A stretch of DNA of 49,020 nucleotides from Lachnospiraceae bacterium (lineage in GTDB: Bacteria > Bacillota > Clostridia > Lachnospirales > Lachnospiraceae), in the NCBI GenBank assembly GCA_017457865.1, contig JAFTGN010000026.1, forward strand, positions 1-49,020, written 5' to 3'. The notes beneath the pieces are model-generated. The model saw only the letters and a list, made by a program, of their open reading frames with translations. It was not told the DNA's origin and did not search any database. A program made the position numbers and the translations under genes. Positions 16,160-19,239 of the stretch are shown one piece after another. Each line of letters begins with the position of its first letter. Position 1 is the first letter of the stretch.

Positions 16160-16179
16160 ACAAGGAAGGAATGGTCAAA

Positions 16180-18471
16180 ATGAGTATGGGGTATAAGATT
16201 CTTGAAATTGACAGTCTGTTAGGCAGATATTATGAGCGGGATATCAATCTTCGTATGGAGAATTATCATCGTATGAAGAATGAATTGCTGACAGAAGGAC
16301 AGAATTTATCTGATTTTGCCAATGGTGCAAATTATTTTGGCATACATAAGACAGAGACGGGCTGGGTGTATCGAGAGTGGGCACCGGCAGCAGAAGCCAT
16401 GTTCTTTATGGGGGATTTCAATGGCTGGAATAAAGAAGCAAATCCCATGAATTACATTGGAAACGGTGTGTTTGAACTCTACTTAGACGGTGGGAATGCA
16501 TTGTGGAATGGCTGTAAGGTAAAAGCAGTGGTTCGTCATGATGGCCAGATGTTAGAGCGTATTCCATTGTATGCCAAGCGTGTGGTACAGGATCCGAATA
16601 CCCTTGTGTGGTGCGCTGAGGTGTATGATTCTTCTGATTTTGTGTGGACAGATGCAGGATTTAAGGCGGACCCTACACCATATATTTATGAGTGTCATAT
16701 CGGTATGGCACAGGAGAAAGAAGGGATCGGCACATACAAGGAGTTTAAGGAGTTTAACCTGCCTCGTATCAAGGCTCTGGGATATAATACCATCCAGATT
16801 ATGGCCATCATGGAGCATGTGTATTATGGTTCCTTTGGCTATCAGGTATCCAACTTCTTTGCCGCTTCTTCCAAGTATGGTACACCGGATGAGCTGAAAG
16901 ATCTGATCAATACTGCCCATGAGATGGGCATTCAGGTATTGTTGGATGTAGTACATTCTCATGCAGTGCGCAATACAGCAGAGGGACTCAATGAATTTGA
17001 CGGTACCGTATACCAGTTCTTCCATGCAGGAGGCAAGGGAGATCACAGTGCATGGGGTACAAAACTGTTTGATTACAACAAAAAAGAAGTCCTGCACTTC
17101 CTGTTGTCCAATTTGAAGTTCTGGATGACAGAGTATCATTTTGACGGTTTCCGGTTTGATGGTGTTACATCTATGTTATACCATGATCACGGTCTGGGAA
17201 CTGCATTTGATCATTATGATAAATATTTTTCTTTGAATACAGATACAGAGTCTGTGACGTACTTACAGCTTGCCAATGATCTGATTCGTCAGGTGAATCC
17301 GGCAGCCATTACCATTGCAGAGGATATGTCTGGTATGCCGGGAATGTGTATTCCCATCGAAGATGGCGGAATCGGATTTGATTATCGTCTGGCAATGGGC
17401 ATTCCGGATATGTGGATTCGAATGATCAAAGAGAGAAAAGACGAAGACTGGGATATGTGGGGCATTTATCATGAGTTGACTGGTCGCAGACCACAGGAGA
17501 AGGTCATTGGTTATGCAGAGTCCCATGACCAGGCATTGGTAGGGGATAAGACCATTATGTTCCGTCTGTGCGACAGCGAGATGTATTATAAAATGGATAA
17601 GGCAAGTTCCAGCATGATCATCGACCGTGGTATTGCACTGCATAAGATGATTCGTCTGGTGACCGCATCTTTAGGCGGGGAAGGTTATCTGAATTTTATG
17701 GGCAATGAATTCGGTCATCCGGAATGGATTGACTTCCCCCGTGAGGGCAATGGATGGAGTTATTTCTATTGCCGCAGACAGTGGAGTCTGGCAGACAATC
17801 CGGATTTGAAGTATATGTGGCTGAATGATTTTGACAAAGCCATGTTGTCTCTTTTGCAGAAGAATAAGGTACTGAGCAAAGGGGAAACACACAATCTCTG
17901 GACACATCAGGGAGACAAGGTACTGATTTATGAGCGCAACAATCTGCTCTTTATTTTCAGCTTCCATCCCAATAAATCCTTCAGTGGCTATTTCGTGCCT
18001 GTGACAAAGGGAGGTGAGTATAAGGTCATCCTGAGTACAGATGCAGGGGAATTTGGTGGATATAATCGTGTGGATACCAAGATGGAATACCGGACAGAAA
18101 CACTGCCAGATGGCAGGATTGGATTCCTGTTCTATATTCCAAGTCGTACCGCAGTGGTGATGAAGCGCATTATTCGCCGCAAAAAGAAAGCAGATGTGGT
18201 AGAAGGAACCGCCGTAGAAGTGTCAGAAGAGAAGCCAAAGCACAGAATGAGAAAAACTGCTGTGGTGACGGAAACAGTGTCAGAAGAAAAGCCAAAACGC
18301 AGAACCAGAAAAGCCGCGGCAGCAACGGAGGAAGCAGCAGAAGAAAAACCAAAGCGCAGAACCAGAAAGACTGCGGGGGAGAAAGCAGCAGAAGCTGAGA
18401 CAGTGGCAGCCACAGAAGAGAAGCCAAAGAGAAGAGGCCGTAAAAAGAAGACTGAGGAAAAAGAGGAATGA
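16180..18471 (+). CDS. glgB: 1,4-alpha-glucan branching enzyme, eukaryotic (GBE1) type, with basic repetitive C-terminal tail
   Basis: Makes alpha-1,6 branches in glycogen. The start at 16180 is nine bases after AAGGAAGGA. An N-terminal CBM48 (GWVYREWAPAAEAMFFMGDFNGWN) is followed by a GH13 barrel matching animal/fungal GBE1 over long runs (SFGYQVSNFFAASSKYGTP, LLDVVHSHA, FDGFRFDGVTSMLYHDHG, TIAEDMSGMPGMC, YAESHDQALVGDK, GGEGYLNFMGNEFGHPEWIDFPR). The nucleophile is Asp327, the acid/base Glu381 and the third carboxylate Asp450. After the family normally ends (YIPSRTAVV), about 100 extra residues (from about 663) hold four units of EEKPKxRxRK separated by Ala/Thr/Glu spacers, ending KPKRRGRKKK. 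This looks like histone H1 or an AT-hook. No other glycogen gene is adjacent; coaX follows after three bases. Confidence 0.93.
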   Translation: MSMGYKILEIDSLLGRYYERDINLRMENYHRMKNELLTEGQNLSDFANGANYFGIHKTETGWVYREWAPAAEAMFFMGDFNGWNKEANPMNYIGNGVFELYLDGGNALWNGCKVKAVVRHDGQMLERIPLYAKRVVQDPNTLVWCAEVYDSSDFVWTDAGFKADPTPYIYECHIGMAQEKEGIGTYKEFKEFNLPRIKALGYNTIQIMAIMEHVYYGSFGYQVSNFFAASSKYGTPDELKDLINTAHEMGIQVLLDVVHSHAVRNTAEGLNEFDGTVYQFFHAGGKGDHSAWGTKLFDYNKKEVLHFLLSNLKFWMTEYHFDGFRFDGVTSMLYHDHGLGTAFDHYDKYFSLNTDTESVTYLQLANDLIRQVNPAAITIAEDMSGMPGMCIPIEDGGIGFDYRLAMGIPDMWIRMIKERKDEDWDMWGIYHELTGRRPQEKVIGYAESHDQALVGDKTIMFRLCDSEMYYKMDKASSSMIIDRGIALHKMIRLVTASLGGEGYLNFMGNEFGHPEWIDFPREGNGWSYFYCRRQWSLADNPDLKYMWLNDFDKAMLSLLQKNKVLSKGETHNLWTHQGDKVLIYERNNLLFIFSFHPNKSFSGYFVPVTKGGEYKVILSTDAGEFGGYNRVDTKMEYRTETLPDGRIGFLFYIPSRTAVVMKRIIRRKKKADVVEGTAVEVSEEKPKHRMRKTAVVTETVSEEKPKRRTRKAAAATEEAAEEKPKRRTRKTAGEKAAEAETVAATEEKPKRRGRKKKTEEKEE

Positions 18472-18474
18472 TAG

Positions 18475-19239
18475 ATGATTTTAGCGATTGACATCGGAAA
18501 TACAAATATTGTCATTGGCTGTATCGAGGGAACCGATATTTCTTTTGTGGAACGGATTTCCACCGATACTCAGAAGACAACTTTAGAATATGCATCTATT
18601 TTTAAGATGGTATTGGATATTTACCATATTCAACCAGGACAATTAAAGGGAAGCATCCTTTCTTCTGTGGTACCACCTATCAATCATGTGATTTGTGATG
18701 CCATTGAAAAAGTGATGCACATCAAACCCATGGTGGTAGGTCCCGGTGTGAAGACAGGACTCAATATTCTGATCGACAATCCGGCACAACTTGGCAGTGA
18801 TCTAGTGGTAGATGCAGTGGCGGCATTAAAGGAATATCCGGCACCATTGATCATTATTGATATGGGCACTGCTACTACCATGTCTGCCATCGATGCAAAG
18901 GGCAATTTTTTAGGAGGTACCATTACACCGGGCATACGGGTGGCATTGGAATCCCTGGTCAGTCGGACTTCTCTATTGTCTCAGATCAGTCTGGAACCGC
19001 CCAAAAAGGCCATCGGCAGCAACACCATTGACAGTATGAAGAGCGGCTCTGTTCTGGGCAATGCAGCTATGCTGGATGGTATGATTGACCGTTTCTGCGA
19101 GGAATTACAGGGAGATGTGACAGTGGTGGCGACCGGAGGACTGGCACAGTTTATCGTTCCATTGTGTCGGCATGAGATCATTTATGACGATGCATTGCTG
19201 TTAAAAGGACTTTGGTATATTTACGAAAAAAACAGCTGA
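18475..19239 (+). CDS. coaX: Type III pantothenate kinase
   Basis: Phosphorylates pantothenate in the first step of coenzyme A synthesis, in the cytosol, needing a monovalent cation and insensitive to CoA feedback. The 254-residue ASKHA-fold protein shows AIDIGNTN at 4-11, ISSVVPP-like SSVVPPIN near 62-69, GPGVKTGLNI near 89-98, GSDLVVDAVAAL near 107-118, IDMGTATT near 128-135 and GGTITPGIRV near 147-156, all typical of CoaX. Length is normal. It starts three bases after the glgB stop, so it is translationally coupled to glgB, an unusual pairing. A stem-loop behind it overlaps the spoIIIAA ribosome site. Confidence 0.95.
   Translation: MILAIDIGNTNIVIGCIEGTDISFVERISTDTQKTTLEYASIFKMVLDIYHIQPGQLKGSILSSVVPPINHVICDAIEKVMHIKPMVVGPGVKTGLNILIDNPAQLGSDLVVDAVAALKEYPAPLIIIDMGTATTMSAIDAKGNFLGGTITPGIRVALESLVSRTSLLSQISLEPPKKAIGSNTIDSMKSGSVLGNAAMLDGMIDRFCEELQGDVTVVATGGLAQFIVPLCRHEIIYDDALLLKGLWYIYEKNS

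Follow-up and report, generated by a model that had tools for sequence, protein, structure and literature searches.

Among the closest described relatives of the system reported here are proteins that hold granules of a storage polymer in place. For PhaM, PMC9049629 describes that lysines of C-terminal motifs fix PHB granules to the nucleoid. PhaF and PhaM, for which tethering to the nucleoid has been proposed, join a part bound to the storage polymer to a basic, low-complexity, lysine-rich C-terminal tail. AlgP, an H1-like protein of polyphosphate granules, has been described to need its repeat-rich basic C-terminus for granule position, and its repeat domain for even granule spacing. For glycogen, PMC4836754 describes an E. 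coli csrA mutant in which the polymer collects at the old pole, with the chromosome excluded. The glycogen branching enzymes of subfamily GH13_8 comprise human GBE1, plant BEI and bacterial members; the core of the enzyme reported here aligns to human GBE1, and it forms one clade with three eukaryotic enzymes against GH13_9. GH13_8 is glossed as 'eukaryotic GBEs' in PMC6339891, and the GH13_8 tree legend in PMC7965971 mentions bacterial sequences (further cited sources are PMC9239181, PMC10395257 and PMC11046441). Neither this subfamily nor this kind of tail is new. In limited searches of the open-access literature, we found no description of such tails being joined repeatedly to branching enzymes and not to GlgA, GlgC or GlgP. 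To our knowledge, the placement of glycogen in bacteria and its sharing at division have been little studied.

We analyzed a stretch of 49,020 nucleotides from a Lachnospiraceae bacterium (assembly GCA_017457865.1, contig JAFTGN010000026.1), called the window in the following. It carries a branching enzyme gene with a tail (Table 1).

Table 1. Features of the branching enzyme gene in the window, in window coordinates.
Feature	Position	Strand	Remarks
GH13_8 glycogen branching enzyme gene	16171..18471	+	766 aa, ends in repeat tail; branching activity predicted
CBM48 domain, residues 56-128	16336..16554	+	Pfam PF02922, 2.2e-11
Catalytic barrel	16759..17829	+	Pfam PF00128 at residues 197-267; GBE1 alignment; barrel end approximate
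C-terminal all-beta domain, residues 577-665	17899..18165	+	Pfam PF02806; family fold stops here
102-residue net-basic tail, few hydrophobics	18163..18468	+	No Pfam, NCBIfam or PDB match
Tail repeat copy 1, EEKPKHRMRK	18219..18275	+	57 nt
Tail repeat copy 2, EEKPKRRTRK	18276..18332	+	57 nt
Tail repeat copy 3, EEKPKRRTRK	18333..18389	+	57 nt
Fourth EEKPK unit (EEKPKRRGRKKK) and tail end	18413..18468	+	Repeat family D2

The gene is a single open frame with an ATG start. The initial annotation had placed this start at 16180, i.e., at the second in-frame ATG, and the longest frame opens at 16171; both starts are possible because homologues, except for locus L035, first align at residues 3–10. CBM48, the barrel, the all-beta C domain and the conserved GH13 catalytic residues were all present, as judged from Pfam and an alignment of 22 sequences in which R328, D330, E384, H452 and D453 are invariant columns. 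D330, E384 and D453 we take to be the usual GH13 triad positions with catalytic roles. By its sequence, the window protein belongs to the GH13_8 glycogen branching enzymes, its catalytic residues are conserved, and branching activity is predicted for it.

The initial annotation had also stated that the catalytic domain follows animal and fungal GBE1 over long stretches and not bacterial GlgB, and had proposed a GH13 phylogeny as a check; both score and tree bear this out. The core (residues 9–667) reached 696 bits with human GBE1, whose alignment extends to residue 664, and 636–691 bits with other eukaryotic branching enzyme chains in a PDB search, compared with 196 bits for the highest-scoring bacterial GlgB of that database. 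The GlgB model NF008967 gave 274.5 bits, below its cut-off of 577. A FastTree phylogeny with local supports was calculated from 105 GH13_8, three eukaryotic and 12 GH13_9 sequences, and a 100% branch placed the window enzyme with the GBE1-type sequences and outside the GH13_9 GlgB. From model cut-off, bit scores and tree position we rejected an ordinary GH13_9 GlgB. A eukaryotic origin, if this had been meant, is not supported either: GH13_8 occurs in scattered Clostridia, the three eukaryotic enzymes form a clade of their own, and the window enzyme lies deep within the Clostridia part of the tree, which also led us to reject a recent gift from a eukaryote. The window enzyme stands closest in this tree to those of RUG702, CHKCI001, Candidatus Fimimorpha faecalis and another genus-mate. 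In an evenly drawn sample of the class, 25 of 393 genomes carried GH13_8, the window's own counted. Both genus-mates examined had the gene (2/2), and at the similarity level of the genus-mates it was found in none of 34 genomes from other genera of the same family, some of them incomplete. We infer that the GH13_8 gene of the window's genus may have been acquired from another Clostridia lineage.

The same genome encodes GlgA, GlgC with an adjoining second GlgC-like gene, two GlgP and a second branching enzyme, a GH13_9 frame of 642 residues without a tail. A type III pantothenate kinase gene (18475–19239) begins 3 nt past the stop codon of the tail and is followed by SpoIIIAA, hence there is no glycogen operon on the downstream side of the branching enzyme gene. 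The branching enzyme/pantothenate kinase junction is the same in L035.

Compared with human GBE1 and plant BEI, the window enzyme is bacterial and carries a 102-residue tail past the end of the family. The motif YIPSRTAVV ends at residue 663, and the 103 residues that follow, i.e., one Met plus the tail, contain 20 Lys, 14 Arg, 20 Glu, one Asp, 15 Ala and 11 Thr. With 34 basic versus 21 acidic residues and a net charge of +13, they form a polyampholyte, in which basic blocks (KPKRRTRK) alternate with acidic/alanine blocks (EEAAEE). About 100 extra residues with four EEKPKxRxRK units had been claimed for this part, and all four units were found: EEKPKHRMRK, EEKPKRRTRK (twice) and EEKPKRRGRK. 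At the DNA level, three copies of 57 nt stand in register, copies 2 and 3 being 74% and 72% like copy 1, respectively, and the fourth EEKPK unit follows 75 nt further on. The claim that the tail is in frame without a frameshift is confirmed by the single open frame and by L035 (RUG702, a separate assembly), which is 98% identical and carries this tail too, with a single residue inserted. The nearest relative thus does not lack the tail, which had been raised as a check, and we rejected an assembly error or frameshift as very unlikely.

The tail is probably flexible. Pfam and NCBIfam yielded no curated family model for it at E values up to 10, in searches with HMMER filters that can drop very short motifs, and the PDB yielded no match. 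The histone H1/AT-hook label of the initial annotation is apt as a loose likeness, i.e., with respect to the Lys/Arg/Pro/Ala-rich repeats; RGRK occurs in the window tail and GRPKK in the tails of L065, L088, L094, L098 and L104. As a family assignment the label fails, because the tail contains no Pfam family and is 20% acidic. True H1 tails are not known to be that acidic and are more basic than the window tail. The glutamate content of the window tail argues against a simple H1-like coating of DNA. The PAKKA/KPAA units of PhaF and PhaM are absent from the window tail, which has EEKPKxRxRK units instead. Moreover, PhaF and PhaM are granule-coat proteins of a polyester and not biosynthetic enzymes, and for the window tail DNA binding is a prediction. 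AlgP is likewise another protein on another polymer, and its basic character is much stronger, the published net charge of the protein being +55.

By likeness to PhaF, PhaM and AlgP, and in line with the tether considered in the initial annotation, we propose, at a probability of about one in three, that the tail anchors the enzyme, and with it the glycogen particle under construction, to a polyanion inside the cell, the nucleoid being the likeliest. We ranked this nucleoid tether ahead of three rivals, to each of which we assigned a smaller share. The tail would be disordered and would make many weak contacts with the polyanion, of which nucleoid DNA would be the likeliest and ribosomes or RNA the next. 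Branching enzymes act at the surface of the growing glycogen particle. Because the enzyme sits there, the tail could hold the particle itself, so that tailed enzymes on the particle surface would keep it in the nucleoid area. The tail would thereby set the site of glycogen formation and of its sharing at division; its occurrence on branching enzymes and not on the other glycogen enzymes examined suggests an anchor for stored sugar inside the cell. Against a nucleoid tether, we count that the window tail is a polyampholyte less basic than H1, and that AT-hook or H1 matches were not found in it.

We compared the tails of the window and L035 for signs of selection. dN/dS was 0.20 for the tail, where 18.3 synonymous changes face 14.7 nonsynonymous ones, and 0.012 for the core; the synonymous divergence was 0.32 in the tail versus 0.16 in the core. 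Only one of 12 tail substitutions (His to Arg) altered the charge class, where 51% would be expected (P = 0.0026); acidic residues were not lost, two Arg had become Lys and one Glu had become Asp. As far as the small counts from a single species pair tell, the tail seems to be under purifying selection and not to drift freely. We count this selection and the conservation of charge in favor of the nucleoid tether. They also speak, with the same reservation of one pair and small counts, against a neutral or nearly neutral expansion of DNA repeats at a tolerant C-terminus, or a generic solubility tail, which we consider improbable. A neutral origin would agree with the higher synonymous divergence of the tail and with the 57-nt direct repeats, which at 72–74% likeness resemble slippage products. 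Another rival starts from the fact that both charge signs are kept between the window and L035: blocks of opposite charge might pair with one another, or dock onto an acidic partner, which would cluster branching enzymes and glycogen, with nucleic acid unneeded. We regard such self-assembly as rather unlikely.

We analyzed tails on other enzymes with a composition test, i.e., K+R of at least 25% and large hydrophobics of at most 15% in the last 40 residues. This test is crude, as it flagged L107, whose tail differs in kind, and missed L124, L132 and L133. Among the GH13_8 frames recognized by motif in 80 loci plus the window, unrecognized frames being left out, 23 of 69 were positive, versus two of 533 other ORFs at the same loci; since the GH13_8 enzymes are related, the Fisher p of 1.4e-21 serves as a guide only. 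A bias of the search toward tailed loci was rejected because the tail-derived seed is contained in none of the 80 loci that it returned. In a wider set of 103 closed GH13_8 frames, 26 passed and 77 failed. L007, L036 and L037, the nearest relatives of the window after L035, also failed; L036 and L037 end soon after the core, and L007 ends in a 33-residue extension unlike the window tail with a net charge of 0. The tail is therefore dispensable to the family, which we count against the nucleoid tether. That its presence differs among near relatives would again fit a neutral expansion.

Placing the tail label on the tree of 105 GH13_8 enzymes required 15 changes, gains or losses alike, of which at least 11 were forced by starred branches. 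The repeat units vary by lineage, e.g., KKPTRKRTAKAAETE, KKKPGRPKKTAEAPAEVK and KKRTTRKKAAEAAPEAEAVKEEAP. The tails of the window and L039 belong to a clade apart from that of the other 23 flagged sequences, and their units differ. Such tails thus seem, from these sequences, to have arisen repeatedly on branching enzymes of related bacteria. We count the 15 changes with lineage-specific units for the nucleoid tether, and the likeness of many tails in composition, with different units, counts against a neutral expansion. Many of the tails are built of alternating basic and acidic blocks, which favors self-assembly. Of 25 flagged tails whose net charge was determined, 24 lay between +4 and +15 (L102, −2), which speaks against it. 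The net negative extension of L102 we also count against the tether. In the class sample, the window was the only tailed one of the 25 GH13_8 carriers, i.e., the window, 23 frames that were read and L278, whose frame of 666 residues leaves no room for a tail; L295 and L297 have 53-residue extensions with net charges of −3 and −1, respectively. Such tails are therefore a feature of certain clades, and that the window stands alone in this sample counts against the nucleoid tether. At L089:5001-7583, a GH13_8 enzyme and a LUD (lactate utilisation) domain form one continuous frame, which could be due to a lost stop codon in a metagenome assembly.

For other glycogen genes, we used 27 genomes selected because their GH13_8 is tailed or extended, G000 and G002 included, with frames taken by homology. 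The tail test was negative for all 24 GlgA scored of 30 loci (five partial or weak matches and one full match, L163, were left out), for all 27 closed GlgP frames (three of 30 loci were cut) and for GlgC at all 30 loci (25 distinct genes, GlgD-type partners left out). Frame lengths had pointed to a GlgC-GlgD fusion, which was rejected because a stop codon lies between the genes in the three loci checked. At E 1e-40, 22 of the 27 genomes had no GH13 branching enzyme besides GH13_8, in a search without GH57 and with some genomes incomplete, which lends indirect support to the predicted branching activity.

We also scored 1.22 Mb of sequence stretches hand-picked, not drawn at random, from genomes with tailed or extended GH13_8. 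A first set of 430 kb, to which the window belongs, contains 352 genes, of which three were flagged, namely the window enzyme, a topoisomerase I and YajC; in a further 789 kb (663 genes) there were four, i.e., a topoisomerase I, a recombinase-type protein and two spurious-looking ORFs. Such tails are therefore rare, with topoisomerase I, an enzyme acting on DNA and seen twice, as another bearer. That these genomes add such tails to their proteins in general was rejected because GlgA, GlgC, GlgP and nearly all sampled genes are without them. We count this absence for the nucleoid tether, and it likewise speaks against a neutral expansion. For self-assembly, the comparable tails of topoisomerase I are a difficulty, as clustering has no obvious need there. 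YajC is a membrane protein and is not known to bind DNA. Its tail therefore counts against the nucleoid tether and favors a third rival, which we also find improbable: the tail might bind RNA or ribosomes, or polyanions in general (polyphosphate, teichoic acids, membrane), without positioning glycogen. Disordered Arg/Lys-rich tails bind many polyanions, which we count for this rival, but present results do not link the tail to any single polymer, and general binding would leave its presence on the branching enzyme and its absence from GlgA, GlgC and GlgP unexplained.

The two DNA topoisomerases I (L266:13800-16067 and L326:14441-16681) have a lysine/alanine/threonine-rich C-terminal tail like those of the branching enzymes. 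A match to the tail DNA pattern on contig C107 was dismissed as chance, since it falls in a frame of only 30 residues that a second ORF overlaps.

Searching for similar tails on other enzymes had been suggested for the same genome and for the same family. In the window's genome, a protein search for copies of the window tail returned only the branching enzyme itself; in the family, some of the longer GH13_9 GlgB carry comparable long, K-rich tails, with KKVETKKVEP repeats in L120, KAKPTAAVANATAAKK in L124, AAKPAKKTG in L116 and others elsewhere. The tail test flagged ten of 44 closed GH13_9 frames, which is not a frequency, as many had been fetched for their long frames. We compared two GH13_9 enzymes from each of nine same-family genomes, in which further branching enzymes are listed, several regions having been chosen for long frames. 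In seven (G005, G009, G013, G021, G028, G029 and G030), one enzyme ends 0–10 residues past the domain and the other has a charged extension of 42–155 residues, and a similar split exists in the window's genome with its tailed GH13_8 and tail-less GH13_9. Both the K-rich GH13_9 tails and this split count for the nucleoid tether. Against it, we count that only four of the seven extensions pass the strict composition test, with L124, L132 and L133 failing it, and that G014 and G031, two of the nine genomes, have charged extensions on both enzymes.

Extending the nucleoid tether to both subfamilies, the branching enzyme of gut Clostridia might double as a glycogen 'phasin', which we put forward as a tentative and somewhat unlikely reading of these sequences. 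Tails on two distant subfamilies would dock growing glycogen on the nucleoid, the store would be placed and inherited evenly, and genomes with two enzymes would often have one docked and one free. If true, PHA, polyphosphate and glycogen would come under one positioning principle. A recurring, enzyme-specific tail would also be a simple genetic handle on glycogen positioning, as it can be deleted or moved.

A gene that presumably resembles MscS mechanosensitive channels, recognized by a shared motif, lies in the short locus of the tailed GH13_9 enzymes L020, L027, L116 and L121; the motif was not seen in L117, L120, L122, L132, L133 and L135. In L134, GGIRDKAAGAA-type repeats make up the 228-residue tail of the GH13_9 enzyme; part of this tail reads as X, and we take it to be LEA-like.
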